Below are positions 211 through 17,361 of a stretch of 21,833 nucleotides of DNA, piece after piece (within the stretch, counting starts at the first letter, position 1; each line of letters starts with the position of its first letter). Both the position numbers and the translations under genes were made by a program. This DNA is from a virus. The notes below the pieces were generated by a model. The model did no database searches and was not told the origin of the DNA. It was given only the letters and a program-made list of their open reading frames with translations. The DNA lies in IMG/VR virus record IMGVR_UViG_3300010430_000505, positions 1 to 21,833 of that record. One strand, 5' to 3'.

Positions 211-3027
211 TTAGACGGCTCCCACGGCGGTGAGGTAGGTGTTGAGGCGGGTGTGGAGGTTCCCGTGCTCTGTGCCGGTCAGCGACCCGCCGAGGAACGC
301 GGCCGATAGCTGGGCATCGGATTGAGAGCCCGCCAGGTCGCTTGTGTTGGCGGCAAGCAGATAAACTGAGAAGGTCGACAGCGGGCCGGATGCGGCGGAA
401 CCGGTATTCTCAAGGGCACCGTTCCGGTAGGTATGGAAGGCTGTCGCGCCGCTCCGATCCGCCACGAGCAACCCCGTCGCGACTTCGGAGTCGGTGCCTC
501 CATCCAGCAGCCCTCCGTTCGGCCCCCACACCCGCCACTCGACACCATCGCTGCGGCGCTGAATTCGGGTGTAGGTAGAGGATGACGAACTGTCCCCGGT
601 GCCTAGATAGATGTCGCCATTGTCAGATGCGACTTCGCGCACCCAGATACCGGCGCTCGCGCTGTCCTGTGCAAAGTTGACGCCGTCCGTGCCGGGCACG
701 AACTGAGTGTCCAGATAGGTCGACGTATTGTCGCCCTTGAAGCCGCGATCTGCCGTGAACACCGGTGCATTAACGGGCAGGATGGGAGAGCCTGCGGGGT
801 CCATCCAATTCACCGTCGCCGACTGGCTGTCGTGCGCTGCCAGCACCCACAGAGCGTCCAGCTTGGCCCAGATCCCATCCGCCTTGAGCCCGTCGACCAG
901 ATCTTCGATCAGCGATTGGCGGGGCCCCGAAGGCGTCGAGGACATGGCGTTGATGATCGCTTGCGCGTCCGGGTCCATGAAGACTGCGGCCGTGGTGAAG
1001 CTCCCGGCGAGCGACCGTGCGCTGTCGCCATAGGTGGCGCCCGTATGCATCACCCACACATAGTAGGTCGTGGACGTCGCCAGATTGCCGATAGGAATGG
1101 TCCAGCTCGTCAGGTTCACGGCATCGGCCACCGACTGCACAACAACCGTTTCACCAGCCGCGTCCGACGTGACCGTCCAGCTCGCCGCAGTCTGCGTGTC
1201 CACACCGTTGACCACGGCGAAGGCGCTGGACTCGATTGTCGGAGATTCGCCTACATCCGTTGCACCGTTCACAGGGCTGGCAATCGAGGGCCGGGCGACA
1301 TGCTGTTCCAAGTAATCGGCCGGGTCATCGCCGCTCTGGATGTAGATCTGCCAGCCGGTGCCATCGTGCTCGAACATCACGACGCCGCCGACATTGGTCA
1401 GCCACGTGTCGTAAGGATCGCCCGGCACGATCACCTTGTTCGTCTCGCCCCAGCTGCGACCGCTATCGTGCAGCTCGAACCGATCGCCCTGCACGGCCCC
1501 CGCCGGCAGGGCGGACAGCGTAACCGGGCCACCGGCCGTGGACACCGGATAGGCCGAGCCGATCTCCGGCGCAAAAGCCGCCGTCTGGATCTCGGCAACC
1601 TGCATGCCTCCGCCGGTCGGCGGGTCGATCCACTCGACATTGAAATCCGTACCGTCGACCTTTGCGGGGATCTGGCCGGCCGTGCCGCCCGCCGGCAGAC
1701 CGGGACCGGGGTCGCCTTTCAGATCGGTGAGCGCGATCAGGTTCTGCCAGGCGCCGGCGCCAAGCCGCCATTGAATATGCGTCGCGGTGACCTGCAGGCC
1801 GACTTCCTGCCCGTCATCACCGTCAATGCCATCCGTACCGGCCAGATCCGCCAGCGCCACGATATTGACCCAGGCACCTTCGCCGCGCCGCCACTGGATA
1901 TGGGTGGCGCTGGCCTGGACGCTGATTTCCTCGGCATCGTCACCGGGCGGGCCCTGGAATGGCACCGCGTCCGACCAGTCGCCGGACGTGCCGCTGTTCT
2001 TGATGTAGAGCACGGCCGGCCCGCCACCACCGGCGGCGCCGTCCAGCGCAAGATAGGCGAAGTCTTCCGCCTCGCCGTCATGGGCGGACCGGGCGGCATA
2101 TGTGCCCGACGCATCCCAGTCGAACGGATCGCCCTTCTCGCCTTTCAGGTCAGCGAGCGCGATCAGGTTTTGCCAGGCACCGGTGCCGATCCGCCACTGG
2201 ATATGCGTGGCCGTGACCTGCAAGCTGACCTCTTCGCCTGTCGGCCCCTCCAGAAGCGAGAGCGCGACCAGATCGGTCCATTCCGCAGCACCGACTTCGC
2301 GCCACTGGATATGTGTGGCGGTGGTCTGCAGCTCGATCGAATTCCCCGGATCGCCCTGATTGCCCTTGAGGGCAGACAGCGCGATCAGGTTCTGCCAGGC
2401 GCCGGTGCCGAGCCGCCATTGAATGTGCGTTGCCGTCACCTGCAGGCCGACCTCCTGCCCGTCATCACCGTCGGCACCCGCCAGATCGGCCAGCGCCACG
2501 ATATTGACCCAGGCACCTTCGCCGCGCCGCCACTGGATATGGGTGGCGCTGGCCTGGACGCTGATTTCCTCGGCATCGGCGCCAGGCGGACCCGTTATGT
2601 CCGACAGTGCGATCAGATTCTGCCAGGCACCGGAGCCGAGGCGCCACTGGATATGTGTGGCGGTGACCTGCAGGCTGACCTCTTCGCCGTCATCGCCGGG
2701 CGGCCCCTGCAAGACGGCCTGCGCCGCGCCCCATCCGGCCTCGGTTTTCGGACCATAGAAAGCCTTGCCCTGCACATCGAAAGCAAACGCACCGACCTCG
2801 CCCGTCTCTTCATCCGGCACGCCATTGGACAGCAGAATACCGTCGATCCGGGCGAGCACCTCGACCAGCCGCTGGGCCAGAACGGGATTGGACGTATAGG
2901 CCCCCACCCAATTGCCCAGATCGGTCACGAAGGCCGACACAAAGGACGACTTGTCCAGCGTGACGCCAGCCGCCTCCAGCTCGTCGGCCAGGGCTTGCGC
3001 GAATTGCGTGTGATTGATGGTCGCCAT
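211..3027 (-). CDS. Modular tail fiber with collagen-like linkers and lectin-like C-terminus
   Basis: This 938-residue protein is a likely receptor-binding tail fiber. Residues 1-108 form a head that probably attaches to the tail tip. Residues 109-438 hold seven copies of a roughly 32-residue repeat (starting at about 115, 153, 191, 229, 265, 366 and 407) with the core T-A-T-H-I-Q-W-R followed by a second Trp and an A-L-x-x-L-x-G ending. Glycine triplets of collagen type, such as GPPGDDG, separate them. A 65-residue unrelated insert lies between copies 5 and 6. Residues 476-566 look like a small beta domain, 580-681 like an Fn3/Ig-type domain, and 684-938 like a concanavalin/LamG-type jelly roll, the probable receptor binder. 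The ATG overlaps the stop of the gpJ-like gene (TGATG), with AAGGA about 8 bases upstream. IQWR-type repeats joined by collagen triplets are known in phage fibers. The receptor cannot be read from the sequence. Confidence 0.9.
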   Translation of the reverse strand: MATINHTQFAQALADELEAAGVTLDKSSFVSAFVTDLGNWVGAYTSNPVLAQRLVEVLARIDGILLSNGVPDEETGEVGAFAFDVQGKAFYGPKTEAGWGAAQAVLQGPPGDDGEEVSLQVTATHIQWRLGSGAWQNLIALSDITGPPGADAEEISVQASATHIQWRRGEGAWVNIVALADLAGADGDDGQEVGLQVTATHIQWRLGTGAWQNLIALSALKGNQGDPGNSIELQTTATHIQWREVGAAEWTDLVALSLLEGPTGEEVSLQVTATHIQWRIGTGAWQNLIALADLKGEKGDPFDWDASGTYAARSAHDGEAEDFAYLALDGAAGGGGPAVLYIKNSGTSGDWSDAVPFQGPPGDDAEEISVQASATHIQWRRGEGAWVNIVALADLAGTDGIDGDDGQEVGLQVTATHIQWRLGAGAWQNLIALTDLKGDPGPGLPAGGTAGQIPAKVDGTDFNVEWIDPPTGGGMQVAEIQTAAFAPEIGSAYPVSTAGGPVTLSALPAGAVQGDRFELHDSGRSWGETNKVIVPGDPYDTWLTNVGGVVMFEHDGTGWQIYIQSGDDPADYLEQHVARPSIASPVNGATDVGESPTIESSAFAVVNGVDTQTAASWTVTSDAAGETVVVQSVADAVNLTSWTIPIGNLATSTTYYVWVMHTGATYGDSARSLAGSFTTAAVFMDPDAQAIINAMSSTPSGPRQSLIEDLVDGLKADGIWAKLDALWVLAAHDSQSATVNWMDPAGSPILPVNAPVFTADRGFKGDNTSTYLDTQFVPGTDGVNFAQDSASAGIWVREVASDNGDIYLGTGDSSSSSTYTRIQRRSDGVEWRVWGPNGGLLDGGTDSEVATGLLVADRSGATAFHTYRNGALENTGSAASGPLSTFSVYLLAANTSDLAGSQSDAQLSAAFLGGSLTGTEHGNLHTRLNTYLTAVGAV
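1714..2703 (-). repeat. Seven-copy IQWR repeat block in the fiber gene
   Basis: This stretch encodes fiber residues 109-438, made of seven related repeats of about 32 residues plus glycine-triplet linkers. Copies 1, 3, 5 and 7 form one subtype (core Q-V-T-A-T-H-I-Q-W-R and W-Q-N-L-I-A-L). Copies 2 and 6 form another (Q-A-S-A-T-H-I-Q-W-R-R and W-V-N-I-V-A-L). Copy 4 is divergent. The pair 2-3 recurs as 6-7 at DNA level, offset by 639 to 648 bases, with a stretch of about 79 bases that I read as identical (1861 onward and 2500 onward). Confidence 0.9.
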
Positions 3028-12897: not shown

Positions 12898-13323
12898 TCA
12901 GGATCGCTCAAACGCGCGCCGGATGTTCCCGGCCAGACGAGGGTATTCAATGTCAGCGGCGGGCCGCAGATAAGGTCTGGCCGGGATTTTCACCTGGGCG
13001 ACGAGGCGCACACTTCCGTCTGATTGCGGGATCGTGAGAGCCGCACCATGCTTGGGCTTGATCACGCCCCCCAACTCATGGATGCGGGCATACACCACGT
13101 CTCTCACGCCCCACGTTCCGCGCACGCCTTTCGCTTCAGGCTGGGCATAGTCGGTGATATCGATGCCGCCTTCCAGCACGCCAGTCCGGTTCTGCCAGGC
13201 ATGGTTCAGCTTCGCCCGCGTTACGGCCGAGGCCATTGTCTGGTTGACGCCCTTGATCTGCGCCTGGCGCATTTTCGGGAGCAAGCTATCGCCGAACCAT
13301 TCGAGATCGTGGGTCGATGCCAT
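12898..13323 (-). CDS. HK97 gp10-like neck / tail-completion protein
   Basis: This 141-residue protein matches the HK97 gp10 family, which acts at the head-tail joint. The motif H-E-L-G-G at residues 82-86, followed by a short loop and A-A-L-T-I-P, is typical, as is the ending with a predicted helix after R-P-Y-L-R-P. It starts at ATG 13323, one to two bases after the methylase stop, with GAGG about 6 bases upstream. The next gene is the tail terminator, so it fits the neck module that the methylase gene interrupts. Confidence 0.85.
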   Translation of the reverse strand: MASTHDLEWFGDSLLPKMRQAQIKGVNQTMASAVTRAKLNHAWQNRTGVLEGGIDITDYAQPEAKGVRGTWGVRDVVYARIHELGGVIKPKHGAALTIPQSDGSVRLVAQVKIPARPYLRPAADIEYPRLAGNIRRAFERS

Positions 13324-13325
13324 TT

Positions 13326-14132
13326 CTACCCTCGCGACTGGATGATCAGCTCGCCAGCCGCGTGACTGCCGGACGCCGCAATGGAATAGTTCACCCGAGC
13401 GCCCTCGATGTCGAAGCGCTCGAAAATTTCGCGGATCTCCGGTCGATCATTGATCGACAAGATGAACCGACCTTTGAGCCGACCCAACCGGTCGGCGAGA
13501 TCCGCAAACTCGGCGCGGCCGAACATTTCTTTCCCATAGTCGTCTTCGCAGCCCCAGTAAGGCGGGTCGAGATAGAACAGGGTGTCTGGACGGTCGTAAC
13601 GGTCAATCAGCGCCTGCCATGTCAGGTTCTCGATCACGACGCCGGCAAGGCGCTCGTGTACCTCCTCGAGCAGCGGCGCCAACGTCGTCAAATTGAAGCG
13701 CGACGGCCGGCCGTGACTGACGCCAAAACTGCGGCCGTTTACCTTCCCGCCGAAGGCAACGCGCTGCAGGTAAAGAAATCGGGCGGCGCGCTCCAGGTCG
13801 GTGAGGGTCGTAGGGTCGCAGTCCTGCAGGCGCTCGAATTCGCGGCGGCTGGTGATCTGGAATCGCAGCGTATCCATGAACTGGGGGTAGTGCCGCTGCA
13901 GTATCCTGAACAGGTTCGCCACGTCGCCGGAGAAGTCGTTGATGATCTCGGACGGCGGCGCCTTTGATCGGCGCAGGAATATGCCGCCCATCCCCACGAA
14001 CCCCTCAGCGTAGGTCGTATGGGGGATCGTTTCGATAATCGCGCAGATCCGTTTCGCAAGGTTGCGCTTTCCGCCAATGTAGGGGGCGGGTGTACGAGAT
14101 GGCCGAACCGGCCGCATGCTGTGAGCAGTCAT
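13326..14132 (-). CDS. DNA adenine methylase, D12 class (Dam-like)
   Basis: This 268-residue protein should transfer a methyl group from S-adenosylmethionine to adenine N6 in DNA. Motif P-Y-I-G-G-K-R lies near residues 18-24. The SAM-binding loop F-V-G-M-G-G lies at 45-50 and the catalytic D-P-P-Y at 189-192. The usual Y-L-Q-R-x-x-F-G-G segment lies near 121-129. I chose ATG 14132 because AAGGA lies about 5 bases before its final AGGGA spacer and the homology begins soon after. A longer frame reaching 14309 would overlap the upstream gene and has no motif in its extra part. It sits between neck genes, preceded by a 145-base gap with two hairpins, which suggests a moron. Target site unknown; it may protect phage DNA from restriction. 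Confidence 0.93.
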   Translation of the reverse strand: MTAHSMRPVRPSRTPAPYIGGKRNLAKRICAIIETIPHTTYAEGFVGMGGIFLRRSKAPPSEIINDFSGDVANLFRILQRHYPQFMDTLRFQITSRREFERLQDCDPTTLTDLERAARFLYLQRVAFGGKVNGRSFGVSHGRPSRFNLTTLAPLLEEVHERLAGVVIENLTWQALIDRYDRPDTLFYLDPPYWGCEDDYGKEMFGRAEFADLADRLGRLKGRFILSINDRPEIREIFERFDIEGARVNYSIAASGSHAAGELIIQSRG

Positions 14133-14165
14133 TCCCTTCCTTCCGGAATCGTGAAACTCACCCTT

Positions 14166-14181
14166 CGCCCCAAATGGGGCG
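14166..14181 (-). other. Short GC hairpin upstream of the methylase gene
   Basis: A perfect 6-base stem (CGCCCC and GGGGCG) with the 4-base loop AAAT lies 34 bases before the methylase start codon. No run of T follows, so it is not a standard terminator. It could slow or regulate translation or mark a junction. Confidence 0.4.
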
Positions 14182-14240
14182 GCGGATGAAAGCATGTCCG
14201 GTGCTTGGTGGGGGTCGTGACGCCAATCTTGAGCCCCGCT

Positions 14241-14261
14241 GCCAGGGCAATGCGCCCTGGC
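14241..14261 (-). terminator. Hairpin after the small acidic gene, terminator-like without T run
   Basis: A perfect 8-base stem (GCCAGGGC and GCCCTGGC) with a 5-base loop lies 17 bases past the stop of the 62-residue gene and just before the methylase leader. On the minus strand it is not followed by a T run. It may therefore act as a weak or factor-dependent terminator, or protect the upstream mRNA. Its position at the edge of an accessory gene is suggestive. Confidence 0.45.
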
Positions 14262-14277
14262 CATCCGCTGACGTTTT

Positions 14278-14466
14278 CTAGTCCATCCAGGCGAGCATCT
14301 CGTCGGCACTCCCCCAGTCGTCGGGAAAGAAGGCCATCTTGCCTTCGGGCCCTGTTGTCCCAGTCATGATGCGCTCGGCGATCATGTCTTCCTCGGCAGG
14401 GGTCAACTGGATGCAGATCGGCTGATCCGCAGTGTCATGCCACAGGTCACCAATCTTCACACGCAT
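14278..14466 (-). CDS. Small acidic protein of unknown function
   Basis: This 62-residue protein starts at ATG 14466, overlapping the stop of the head-closure gene by one base (TGATG). It is acidic in its C-terminal half, with F-F-P-D-D-W-G-S-A-D-E-M-L-A-W near the end, and has no membrane segment or Cys pair. The tight coupling supports a real gene. I do not recognise it. A role as a neck accessory or a moron product are both possible. Confidence 0.65.
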   Translation of the reverse strand: MRVKIGDLWHDTADQPICIQLTPAEEDMIAERIMTGTTGPEGKMAFFPDDWGSADEMLAWMD

Positions 14467-14810
14467 CAGTCGATCCTTCTCAGATTGGCCTCAAGGTGAG
14501 TGTGCTTGTGCTGCACCTCGCCCTCGACGGCGAAGCGGCCGGGAAACAGCACCTCGCCGCGACGATCGGTGATCTGTGCGATTTCATCGCCTTCCCGGAG
14601 ATCCACGCCGAGCGAAAACATGGCGCGCATGTCCTCGATGACGACGGTCTTGTCACCGTCTACCGTTTCGCGGGTTGTCTTCGACCACGCCCAGCACTTC
14701 AGGGTCGCCAAGGGTTGAAAATCCGGTGGAACATCACCGCCCCAGCTATCCTTGGCGACAGCTTGATTTCGTTCGACGGCAGCGCGGTGGATTAGGCGAT
14801 GTGCGATCAC
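14466..14810 (-). CDS. Head closure (stopper) / head-tail joining protein
   Basis: This 114-residue protein matches the length and pattern of head-tail joining proteins (Phage_H_T_join type). It has an N-terminal helix segment with H-R-A, a W-G-G-D-V-P-P turn, a central strand pair and a C-terminal E-V-Q-H-K-H-T-H-L-E strand near residues 97-106. Such proteins plug the connector after packaging and dock the tail. The start overlaps the DUF2786 gene (ATGA). The assignment is based on gene order between the connector and the gp10-like protein and on general sequence pattern. Confidence 0.7.
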   Translation of the reverse strand: MIAHRLIHRAAVERNQAVAKDSWGGDVPPDFQPLATLKCWAWSKTTRETVDGDKTVVIEDMRAMFSLGVDLREGDEIAQITDRRGEVLFPGRFAVEGEVQHKHTHLEANLRRID

Positions 14811-15475
14811 GTCAGCATCCCCTGTGTTAGAGGCGCACCCGCGCCCACTCCAGCGTTCAGGTCTACGGCCCGGCCCGCCATGACCCCGCGCCAGAAGTCG
14901 TCGTCAGCCCCTCGACCTTTGGCATCACCCGCCCGGCTTTCGACGCAGACAAGGGTCGGGTGTTGCTCACGAAGGTATTGCCGCAGCGTCTCGTCCGGCG
15001 GCAGGGGCGACAAGCGCGCCACCTTGGAATACACACCAACCGCCCAGGCTTCACAGAAGACGTCCGCACGCGCGCGCTTTCGGCCCGGCTTGCATCGCCT
15101 CAACCGGGTGCGGATGTATTCCGCACGAACGGCTTTCACGCGACGGAAAAGAAAGCTGAATGCGTAAGTCGCGATCTCGGCCGAGGCACCCCGACCGACA
15201 AAGGTCCGGTTCCCTTCGTTGAGGTATTGAACGACACCGAGGGCCCGGCAAACCGTTGAGGCGAGGATGCTCTCCCAGCGCGGAGGCCTGATGTTGCCGC
15301 TCGCCCGAGCCGACACCTCTTCTATGTCCGCCATTGATAGCTGTGCGTCCGTAACACCATGGGCGGCCATGAGGTCGCGGGCCTTGGCCAGCGCCGCAGC
15401 TGCTTCGTGCTCATTGCCACTACGGGCAAGGGCGAGACATTTCCGGATCTTGTTGAGGACCGCTTTGTCTGTCAT
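14807..15475 (-). CDS. DUF2786 / DUF7168-like protein
   Basis: This 222-residue protein has the DUF2786 pattern in residues 3-45 (K-I-R-K-C-L-A-L-A-R-S followed by N-E-H-E-A-A-A-A-L-A-K-A). A second region at about 65-155 resembles DUF7168, containing F-V-G-R-G, an aromatic-rich helix and many Arg residues. The function of these domains is not established. They are common in phage and mobile DNA. Here it lies between neck genes, with ATGA overlaps on both sides, so it is co-translated with structural genes. The basic Arg/Lys stretch near residues 120-137 could bind nucleic acid, which is my inference. Confidence 0.8.
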   Translation of the reverse strand: MTDKAVLNKIRKCLALARSGNEHEAAAALAKARDLMAAHGVTDAQLSMADIEEVSARASGNIRPPRWESILASTVCRALGVVQYLNEGNRTFVGRGASAEIATYAFSFLFRRVKAVRAEYIRTRLRRCKPGRKRARADVFCEAWAVGVYSKVARLSPLPPDETLRQYLREQHPTLVCVESRAGDAKGRGADDDFWRGVMAGRAVDLNAGVGAGAPLTQGMLT

Positions 15476-15813
15476 GCCGCACCGCCCCGATCGAGGCCCG
15501 CGATCATTCCCAGCATGTAGTTCATGACGTGCTCGCGGCTATTCCCGTCATCGAAGAAGACGGAGCCAGCCTCCTTGGTGCAAAGGTTGATCACCTGCCA
15601 CTCACCGCCGCAGGCAACGCAAAGCTCGAAATGACGGATCACCGGCCGCGGGCCGAGCACGGGCTTACGGCCGAGAAAATCGTGAACCCGCACAATCCAG
15701 TCCCGTCCCGACTTTTCACGGAGGGTCTGCAGGATATCGTCGACGTCGACATCGCATTCGACTGTTCGGCCGCGAATGACTTCCGGCTCGGACAAGTAGA
15801 CAACCGCTGGCAT
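15472..15813 (-). CDS. Unknown protein with a CxxC pair, in the neck cluster
   Basis: This 113-residue protein has no family I can name. I chose ATG 15813, two bases after the membrane protein stop, over a longer frame to 15984, because the extra part would lie across the whole membrane gene. It contains C-V-A-C-G-G near residues 65-70 and another Cys at 78, so a small metal site is possible. The N-terminus is acidic. The stop overlaps the DUF2786 start (ATGA), suggesting that the two are produced together. Confidence 0.7.
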   Translation of the reverse strand: MPAVVYLSEPEVIRGRTVECDVDVDDILQTLREKSGRDWIVRVHDFLGRKPVLGPRPVIRHFELCVACGGEWQVINLCTKEAGSVFFDDGNSREHVMNYMLGMIAGLDRGGAA

Positions 15814-15815
15814 CG

Positions 15816-16028
15816 CTAAATCCCGAACAGGCCACGCGGCAGCCAGGACACGATCCAAGCCGCGGCGATCAACACCAGCACGATTGTCGCCAGCAAAGAG
15901 CTGGCAGCCTTGCTCGCGAACGAGCGCACGGGCCCTGGGACCTTTGACCATGCCCACACCGGCACTCCGGCAACCCAGAGCCACAGCACGAAAAAGACGA
16001 CACCAACAGTGATCCAGACCGCCGTCAT
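15816..16028 (-). CDS. Small membrane protein with two predicted helices
   Basis: This 70-residue protein has two hydrophobic segments, at about residues 4-28 and 43-63, joined by a short basic loop (S-K-V-P-G-P-V-R). The loop is likely cytoplasmic by the positive-inside rule. The start overlaps the connector stop (ATGA). A membrane protein inside a head-neck cluster is unexpected. It could act in superinfection exclusion or envelope change, like other moron products, or be a holin-like protein. No endolysin gene lies beside it, so the lysis reading is weak. Confidence 0.75.
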   Translation of the reverse strand: MTAVWITVGVVFFVLWLWVAGVPVWAWSKVPGPVRSFASKAASSLLATIVLVLIAAAWIVSWLPRGLFGI

Positions 16029-16591
16029 GACATCATAAACCCGCGCTTTTGTGCGAGGCTCCCAAGGATGCTCTCTCGATCATCCGCGTGGTCCTCGGAC
16101 AGTGTGTACGAATGGTCGCCCGCGCGTTCAGACTTCAGCGCGCCGCGATAGGAAAGATCGAGCTGCACCAGTTTGATGGTGACTTCATCGCGGGCGGCCG
16201 CGTCTCCTGCTGGCGTGTAGGTGACCTTCACCAGCGGGGCCCAATAGGCTCGCCCGTTCGGACCGCCAGTAAGGCGCTGCAAGGTCCGGCCACCATGCAG
16301 AATGCGGTAGTCGCTCGTTGAGAGCGCCACCTCGGCAGCGGCGTCGCCGGTGTCGGCCGGGTCGACTTCAACCACGGTCATAGCCTCAGCGGTGTCGATC
16401 TGCCGAGCGAGGCGCAATGTTCTTTGCGTACGCGCATCGGGATCGGCCGGATCGCCCAACTCGACCGTGATTGGCCCGGCAGGGCCGAAGCGCGCCTCGA
16501 TCTCGTCGGCGATGCCGTCGATCATGGCTTGCAGTTCGGAATCTGACAGATCCGAGCCGGTGCGCTCTTTGACACGGTCGAGGAGGGCCAT
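16025..16591 (-). CDS. Head-tail connector (HK97 gp6-like adaptor)
   Basis: This 188-residue protein is likely the adaptor ring below the portal. It has an N-terminal helical part (residues 1-35, with L-S-D-S-E-L-Q-A-M-I-D and E-I-E-A-R-F-G-P) that is typical of gp6-like connectors. A beta-rich middle follows, with Y-R-I-L-H-G-G-R-T-L-Q-R-L near residue 97, then a C-terminal helix carrying the E-R-A-G-D-H-S-Y signature. It follows the capsid-side genes. AGGGG lies about 7 bases before ATG 16591. Confidence 0.85.
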   Translation of the reverse strand: MALLDRVKERTGSDLSDSELQAMIDGIADEIEARFGPAGPITVELGDPADPDARTQRTLRLARQIDTAEAMTVVEVDPADTGDAAAEVALSTSDYRILHGGRTLQRLTGGPNGRAYWAPLVKVTYTPAGDAAARDEVTIKLVQLDLSYRGALKSERAGDHSYTLSEDHADDRESILGSLAQKRGFMMS

Positions 16592-16600
16592 TCGACGCCC

Positions 16601-17068
16601 CTATTCGCTGGGTTCAGAGACGCCGCCGGCAGCCGCCGGCTCGGTCGAAGCCAAGGCCTTCGCCTGGTCCACCAACTCGGACCAGTCTTTGACCTTGGCT
16701 TCGACCTCCGGCGGGCGCTCCGGGTCGACACCAGCGATGGCAGCGAAACTGTCGAGACCTGCCGCCTGCAGCGCGGCGGCAGTAGCAGCGCCGACGCCCT
16801 TGAGCACGGTGAGATCGTCCGGCAACTTGCCGTCGCCTTCCTTCGTTGCTCCGGCGCCGCCTTCCTTGGTCGCCCCGGCGTCGCCCTCCTTGGTCGGCGG
16901 CGCCTTCCTCTCGGCCGGCAGCTTGCCATCGACCAAGCCGAACTTCTCGGCGGCGCTGTCCGGGATATCGTCACCCGGCGCGGCATACAGGCTCGCCCCC
17001 AAAGGATCGCCCTCGGCAACCAGCGCGGTCGCGCAGGCCGTGATAAACAGTCGTTGATGCGCTTTCAT
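16601..17068 (-). CDS. Head-region protein with helix-hairpin-helix domain and tandem repeats
   Basis: This 155-residue protein lies between the putative decoration protein and the connector. The first 50 residues are a conserved-looking segment of unknown role (A-P-G-D-D-I-P-D and F-G-L-V-D-G-K-L). Residues 59-81 hold three copies of a T-K-E-G-x-A-G-A type repeat. Residues 84-115 read as a helix-hairpin-helix (L-K-G-V-G-A-A-T-A-A-A-L), which usually binds DNA backbone. The C-terminus is acidic. AAGGAG lies about 7 bases before ATG 17068, a strong site. Proteins of this layout are seen after phage capsid genes, but their function is not known to me. DNA binding is inferred. Confidence 0.75.
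   Translation of the reverse strand: MKAHQRLFITACATALVAEGDPLGASLYAAPGDDIPDSAAEKFGLVDGKLPAERKAPPTKEGDAGATKEGGAGATKEGDGKLPDDLTVLKGVGAATAAALQAAGLDSFAAIAGVDPERPPEVEAKVKDWSELVDQAKALASTEPAAAGGVSEPSE
16826..16894 (-). repeat. Three 24-base tandem units in the helix-hairpin-helix gene
   Basis: Three adjacent units of about 24 bases encode T-K-E-G-D-A-G-A, T-K-E-G-G-A-G-A and T-K-E-G-D-G-K. The unit is an 8-residue flexible, charged linker between the N-terminal segment and the helix-hairpin-helix. Slipped-strand copying could change the copy number. Confidence 0.7.
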
Positions 17069-17097
17069 GATCAGCTCCTTTCAGCTGAAGAGGCCGA

Positions 17098-17361
17098 TCA
17101 CTCGGCCTTCGCCCAGAGGACATGCAGGAAGTCCCCGGTCGTGTCGGTGGTGGTGTTCTCAACCACGCCGCCCTTGGTGGCGTGGATCGAGAATTCGTCG
17201 GTGCGGTCGGTACGTGTCGGCGGCGAGCCATCCACGATGTGTTCGACCGACAGCAGCGTGTCCCCCGGCATCAAGTTGCCGGGCACGTTATGCTCACCGG
17301 CCTCACCGCCCGGAATGAGTGCGCAGCCGGTCGGAACGGAAAATCCAGAGATGGTGGTCAT
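17098..17361 (-). CDS. Small capsid-adjacent protein, possible decoration protein
   Basis: This 87-residue protein directly follows the major capsid gene. I chose ATG 17361, with GGAGGG about 5 bases upstream, over the TTG one codon earlier. It is Gly- and Thr-rich and beta-like, with no membrane segment (opening M-T-T-I-S-G-F-S-V-P-T-G). Many siphoviruses encode a small decoration or cement protein near the capsid gene, so this is a reasonable guess. The sequence does not let me confirm it. Confidence 0.55.
   Translation of the reverse strand: MTTISGFSVPTGCALIPGGEAGEHNVPGNLMPGDTLLSVEHIVDGSPPTRTDRTDEFSIHATKGGVVENTTTDTTGDFLHVLWAKAE

Follow-up and report, generated by a model that had tools for sequence, protein, structure and literature searches.

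Gene Content of the Adaptor–Stopper Interval

The window, that is, the whole stretch of 21,833 nucleotides analysed here (a 21.8 kb virus record), is 100% contained in a phage record of 35.8 kb. The longer record carries transposases A and B, GemA, and Mor (tblastn) and also encodes a lysozyme, terminase, portal, protease, and capsid; these genes resemble those of the Sinorhizobium phages StopSmel and Aussie. With the MuA/MuB transposition genes, GemA, and Mor present in one genome, the source is by gene content a transposable, Mu-like phage. Its head is of the HK97 type (PF05065), and a tape-measure gene in the same record indicates that the tail is long.

The region of interest is read on the minus strand. 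It is bordered upstream by the head–tail adaptor (connector) gene at positions 16025–16591 and downstream by the head–tail stopper gene at positions 14466–14810. Both were recognised through StopSmel, whose annotated head-to-tail adaptor and stopper they match at 69% and 61% identity, respectively; the adaptor is also 67% and 64% identical to those of Aussie and Mwe-Yong1, and the PF05521 match on the stopper is weak and below the cut-off. The first-pass annotation had placed a two-helix membrane protein, a CxxC protein, and a DUF2786 protein between connector and stopper, and all three are indeed there on the minus strand: P1 (positions 15816–16028, 70 aa), P2 (positions 15472–15813, 113 aa, acidic), and P3 (positions 14807–15475, 222 aa, pI 9.9). 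Their junctions had been described as ATGA overlaps or a two-base gap. This holds for adaptor/P1 (ATGA, positions 16025–16028), P1/P2 (two bases, positions 15814–15815), and P2/P3 (ATGA, positions 15472–15475), but the P3/stopper overlap reads GTGA (positions 14807–14810).

P1 has two predicted transmembrane helices, at the hydrophobic residues 4–22 and 45–63 of the hydropathy profile, and belongs to no Pfam, PHROG, or PADLOC family. For P2, no family was above the cut-off in the same three collections. The longest reading frame of P2 begins at position 15984; we took 15813 as the start because the similarity to both of its relatives, from two phages of the Maricaulis type (61–62% identity), begins there. 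In the alignment of these three members, the motif C65-x-x-C68 and C78 are invariant. A fold search with P2 was ruled out owing to the low confidence of its predicted model (pLDDT 58).

P3 is a clear member of a known family, matching PF10979 (DUF2786; E = 1.1e-15, 57.8 bits against a curated cut-off of 23.9), PF23771 (DUF7168; E = 9.4e-26, 90.6 against 25.5 bits), and phrog_421 (3.2e-50). The DUF2786 domain occupies positions 15350–15460 (PF10979, E = 3.3e-18 in a search of the window's own record), and the DUF7168 domain (residues 45–181) occupies positions 14933–15343. The AlphaFold model of P3 is of good quality (pLDDT 88.1, pTM 0.79). No solved structure was matched by sequence, and Foldseek against the PDB gave nothing at E ≤ 0.001. 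In the fold comparison, the best VIA score (Z = 5.3) was to helical proteins; the DUF7168 part also aligned with many KH chains at Z = 3.9–5.0 (rmsd mostly 2.4–4.4, in a few cases up to 7.8, over about 60–90 residues), which is below the reliable level of the tool and may reflect a common arrangement. All 29 matches in the viral structure library at E ≤ 0.001 were DUF2786/DUF7168, "uncharacterized", or nameless proteins, and no paper listed in our literature search concerned the function of this family of phages and plasmids. On the model and its composition, P3 can be described as a basic, putative nucleic-acid-binding protein.

The dN/dS values were 0.15–0.18 for P2 (three comparisons), 0.11 between two relatives of P3 (synonymous changes were saturated in two comparisons involving the P3 of the window), and 0.38 and 0.58 for P1. 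Owing to these low ratios, all three look like real genes, with the weaker case for P1.

At the other end of the window, an ORF of 938 aa (positions 211–3027, minus strand) contains many internal repeats that resemble one another (ATHIQWR blocks with runs of GPPG), and its DNA self-matches reach 90% and more. By its position it is tail-fibre-like.

A Variable Slot in the Late Operon

We surveyed 64 viral and 14 genome loci with adaptor relatives together with three annotated phages (81 in all), of which 68, including the window's own phage, are non-redundant; the named hosts are mostly Alphaproteobacteria. The distance between the adaptor and stopper genes varied from −4 to 2294 bp, being at least 100 bp in 52 of the 68 loci, at least 300 bp in 34, and at least 600 bp in 26. 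These shares exceed those at each of six other junctions, where, in gene order, gaps of at least 100 bp were found in 22/38, 1/39, 24/66, 29/67, 22/63, and 2/63 loci, and gaps of at least 300 bp in 0, 0, 8, 18, 2, and 0. The slot was empty (<30 bp) in 15 of the 68 loci, among them StopSmel and Mwe-Yong1, and holds a single gene in Aussie. The filled slots contain 117 ORFs (some probably spurious) in 63 clusters. Variable genes thus lie at a fixed place between conserved genes across the 68 loci, as in a region of genomic plasticity, and the junction is very probably a cargo slot in this group of Mu-like phages, as far as comparison of sequences can tell.

Nor is this the operon's sole variable site, since the junction between the stopper and morphogenesis genes, filled less often (29/67 at 100 bp or more), has the longest single insert of the survey (3893 bp). 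In the window, this second variable junction (positions 13326–14466) holds two genes, for a 62-aa acidic protein (positions 14466–14278) and a D12 adenine methyltransferase (positions 14309–13326; PF02086, 2.9e-21), both on the minus strand and both present in the Maricaulis-type phages.

Four-base overlaps were found at both ends of the cargo in 36 of the 53 filled slots; the right-hand count (50/53) is partly built in, as an A usually comes directly after the start codon of the stopper. A scan for promoters of the sigma-70 type gave none at positions 13200–17200, and the two terminator-like sites in this region, against 2.9 expected, are at chance level. From the frequent overlaps, transcription and translation with the late operon are expected, and the promoter and terminator scans lead to the same expectation. 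Judging from gene order, the cargo would therefore be expressed late.

The slot of the window has a GC content of 0.629, compared with 0.635 for the adaptor and 0.600 for the stopper; over the 53 filled slots, the value is 0.641 against 0.670 for the flanks, being lower in 44 of the 53. A classical moron is described as having its own promoter and terminator and usually a deviating base composition (PMC4378225). The slot of the window has neither a promoter of the sigma-70 type nor terminators above chance and so is not a moron in this sense; only the composition of the slots as a group, on average 0.03 below their flanks, agrees in part.

P1 and P2 Form One Cassette and P3 Another

Separate scans of viral contigs with P1 and P2 gave the same two Maricaulis-type phages, and no relative of either protein was found in the phage collection. 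P1 and P2 thus occur together in all three phages found; the Maricaulis maris genome locus nearly duplicates one of the two Maricaulis-type phages. Among sampled genomes, P2 was found in 1 of 385 from the class of M. maris and 1 of 398 from its order, the sole match being M. maris itself. In the adaptor tree, the three carriers group together as a single clade with good support and therefore represent one lineage, not independent co-occurrence.

Small two-helix proteins are also found in other slots: 18 ORFs of 60–78 residues with at least two predicted helices were counted in 17 of the 68 loci (e.g., L036:6564–6770, L086:6564–6767, and L090:6701–6904), in an ORF tiling that missed L030's own P1. 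Kinship of P1 with these proteins was rejected, the hhalign probability against a profile of 13 of them being 1.6%.

P3 was found in the slot of 9 of the 68 loci, and a later scan with late-type P3 proteins (41 loci) added a tenth (L127/L128). It lacks P1 and P2 in 9 of these 10, the window's phage alone carrying all three. A further 12 loci have P3 at the portal–MuF junction of a different, Mu-type head module, in every case without P1 and P2. The remaining placements are just before the terminase (L137–L139), by GemA or Mor (L134, L145, L146), and near the transposase (L132 and L141), with L118, L143/L144, and L147–L149 left without placement; loci were counted by eye, with near-copies counted once and each placed by its nearest recognised genes. 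Of 38 whole records that we selected, mainly longer contigs representing 37 of the 68 loci plus the near-copy L050, 8 matched DUF7168, once in each, with 7 matches in the slot and 1, that of StopSmel, in the early region. StopSmel and the P. aeruginosa phage Fc02 carry a DUF2786 gene in the early region, with transposase B on one side and GemA on the other; P3 relatives adjoin GemA in several Mu-like phages, and a gene for a GapR-like DNA-binding protein stands beside one in a single record (L024/L140). P3 relatives are also found in other kinds of phage.

Mapped onto the 68-row adaptor tree, the 9 carriers of P3 require 9 changes, against a mean of 8.6 for shuffled labels; well-supported branches force at least 6 of these changes, and the count does not distinguish gain from loss. 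On the tree of P3 itself (22 rows, without the loci of the later scan), the early, slot, and portal–MuF contexts need only 3 changes (shuffled mean 10.0), so that context follows lineage. The portal–MuF rows are nested beside two slot rows, the branch of StopSmel P3 is very long, and many forks are open. P3 has, by these trees, been gained or lost several times independently of P1 and P2.

The first-pass annotation suggested that the three genes form a functional set. The distribution contradicts this: P1 and P2 belong to one clade, and P3 stands alone in 9 of 10 slot loci and in 12 of 12 portal–MuF loci. When co-occurrence elsewhere is taken as the check, it is borne out for P1 with P2 but not for P3 with them. 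On sequence evidence, P1 and P2 are one cassette and P3 is another; together they are probably not a single machine but cargo in loose association.

P3 relatives were also seen on 296 of 72,556 plasmid records (e.g., L189:8001–8690), 226 of them from Acinetobacter and 241 typed as conjugative; at least one of these records is a Mu-like prophage. By annotation, the DUF2786 neighbourhoods of five plasmids comprised one Mu-like prophage and four without clear anti-defence neighbours, which is neutral. The DUF2786 gene of Fc02 (Fc02_06) was rejected as an exclusion gene, since the Fc02 report puts the exclusion genes of this phage by ner and not at Fc02_06 (PMC9936078).

Anti-Defence Families in the Slot and at the Portal–MuF Junction

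Acb2 binds and sequesters the cyclic nucleotides of CBASS immunity (PMC12657218). The Acb2/Tad1 hairpin (PF24729) matched in 7 of the 38 whole records at E ≤ 0.001, 5 of them above the cut-off. All seven matches, with positions converted by hand from contig ranges, adjoin the adaptor: the slot holds 5 of them (3 above the cut-off) and the preceding gap 2 (both above). Pfam scans placed the slot proteins Aussie gp37 (L018), L062, and L047 above the PF24729 cut-off, as well as proteins from the gap that directly precedes the adaptor in L056, L074, and L084. A family of short slot proteins found in 8 loci, 7 of which were scanned, remained below it (L094, 8.2e-6; L091, 1.3e-5; L098, 0.0011; L100, 0.0015; L046, 0.0072; L043, 0.051; L033, no match). 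The control family, the DNA-end protein Mu Gam, matched in 7 of the 38 records and never in the slot; outside the 38, it was found in the slot of one short contig (L061). Tad2 was found in none of the 38 records. Neither Acb2 (PF24729) nor Acb1 matched in the window's own phage record, and P1, P2, and P3 matched no known anti-defence family in Pfam, PHROG, or PADLOC.

Also carried in the slot are a lipid desaturase, DUF1643, a weakly matching methyltransferase, and many nameless small proteins. Because most slot genes are without known function and these three families are also present, the counter-defence reading of the slot rests on few families. The desaturase (PF10520; L056:6887–7426 and L059:3605–4132) sits in the adaptor–stopper slot of one phage and in the stopper–morphogenesis slot of another.

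The portal–MuF junction is variable as well (−5 to 3046 bp), its other contents including an MT-A70 methyltransferase and a PAPS-reductase-like protein. In 8 of the 12 P3-carrying portal–MuF loci, an Acb1 (anti-CBASS) domain is found in a portal-length open frame. It was confirmed with Pfam as the C-terminal domain of the Mu-type portal protein in L024 (positions 6937–4868, minus strand) and matched in seven more records (L113, L116, L119, L120, L133, L135, and L142). All 8 frames keep two H-x-T motifs, which we take to be the catalytic motifs. Of 27 Acb1 loci in total, P3 is present in 8 of the 20 non-redundant ones with MuF in view and in 0 of the 7 without it, so the link between Acb1 and P3 is loose. 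As predicted from these frames, a virion protein would carry a fused counter-defence enzyme in Acb1-portal.

Proposed Role of the Cargo and Alternative Explanations

The three genes had been said to lack a clear structural role, and their patchy presence beside intact structural genes (P3 in 9 and P1 and P2 in 3 of the 68 loci, with 15 slots empty) argues against regular virion parts. The suggestion of exclusion or host takeover agrees in spirit with a variable slot in which Acb2/Tad1-hairpin proteins are among the few contents that can be identified, most being nameless. With moderate confidence, we regard P1, P2, and P3 as what their sequences suggest, namely, exchangeable cargo of a hypervariable slot, expressed late and serving counter-defence or host takeover, and counter-defence or takeover is also, on balance, the probable main role of the slot as such. 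The slot would be used late in infection, as capsid, portal, and tail proteins appear, which are known triggers of some abortive defences, and inhibitors encoded in the same operon would appear together with the trigger. The reported triggers include a viral capsid protein for CapRel (PMC9712102), capsids for a TIR system (PMC11312562), and a tail tube protein for DSR2, which is itself countered by a phage protein (PMC11087589). For P3 on its own, a counter-defence or takeover function has about an even chance; with its basic character and possibly KH-like DUF7168 domain, it would most likely bind nucleic acid and blunt a host response. More tentatively, P1 and P2 might act as an exclusion or anti-effector pair, in which a membrane protein and a soluble, possibly metal-binding partner would serve in exclusion or act on a membrane effector. 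A broader proposal, that Mu-like phages keep counter-defence genes in head operons, at set junctions specific to each virion module, so that inhibitors match the defence-triggering proteins in timing and ratio, and that P3 is a new, widespread anti-defence family moved between head modules and onto plasmids, is speculative and probably goes too far.

The early position of DUF2786 genes near GemA in several phages fits DNA metabolism or transposition equally well. P3 could then be a nucleic-acid-handling factor of the transposable life cycle, early or late, with roles in replicative transposition, the switch from replication to packaging, or gyrase/GemA-linked control of host DNA, and P1–P2 would be unrelated passengers. 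In favour of such a factor, P3 relatives in StopSmel and several Mu-like phages adjoin GemA or lie between it and transposase B, and in three loci they precede the terminase; the basic pI, the weak KH-like matches, and the GapR-like neighbour in L024/L140 point the same way. We nevertheless consider this explanation rather unlikely, since DUF7168 was found in only 8 of the 38 partly incomplete records and would thus be dispensable for the cycle in most, and since P3 relatives are carried by plasmids and by phages of other kinds.

Location and translational coupling, with four-base overlaps at both ends of most filled slots, would also suit accessory morphogenesis proteins, i.e., a chaperone, a membrane-tethered assembly aid, or minor neck proteins. 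This is improbable, however, as some loci with both adaptor and stopper have an empty slot, the contents differ even between phages as closely related as StopSmel and Aussie, and P3 also occurs early in some genomes and within a second head module. The diversity of the mostly nameless contents and the variability of other junctions would instead be expected of neutral or near-neutral insertions at a permissive junction, with no common role. To this we likewise assign little probability: dN/dS is low for P2 and for a pair of P3 genes, P3-type genes occupy the same slot on unlinked branches, and all seven Acb2/Tad1 matches adjoin the adaptor. Under the preferred reading of exchangeable counter-defence or takeover cargo, the adaptor–stopper interval is a precise place to look for new anti-defence genes in these transposable phages, DUF2786/DUF7168, carried by many phages and plasmids, becomes a testable candidate, and the slot hints that phages may match the timing of inhibitors to the late proteins by which abortive defences are triggered.

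Comparison with Known Systems

P3 belongs with the phrog_421 DUF2786/DUF7168 proteins of phages and plasmids. T4 Imm is a small two-helix superinfection-exclusion protein; P1 resembles Imm-type proteins in size and in its two predicted helices, a likeness by description only. In Aussie and other relatives, the adaptor–stopper slot is taken by Acb2/Tad1 sponges (PF24729), whereas P1, P2, and P3 are not members of this family, which is absent from the window's phage record.

In our literature search, no earlier account of the adaptor–stopper slot was found among the matches listed. The closest parallel is provided by the regions of genomic plasticity described in Mu-like phages of P. aeruginosa, which contain anti-CRISPR genes (PMC4378225). 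In both cases, small variable genes lie at fixed sites between conserved genes of Mu-like phages, and in P. aeruginosa some of the contents are reported counter-defence genes (PMC4378225). The present slot differs in belonging to another phage clade and virion module, in lying between adaptor and stopper, and in its recognisable contents, i.e., Acb2/Tad1-like, DUF2786, and small membrane proteins. The kind of region is thus already known from the plasticity regions of Mu-like phages; its position and its cargo are new.
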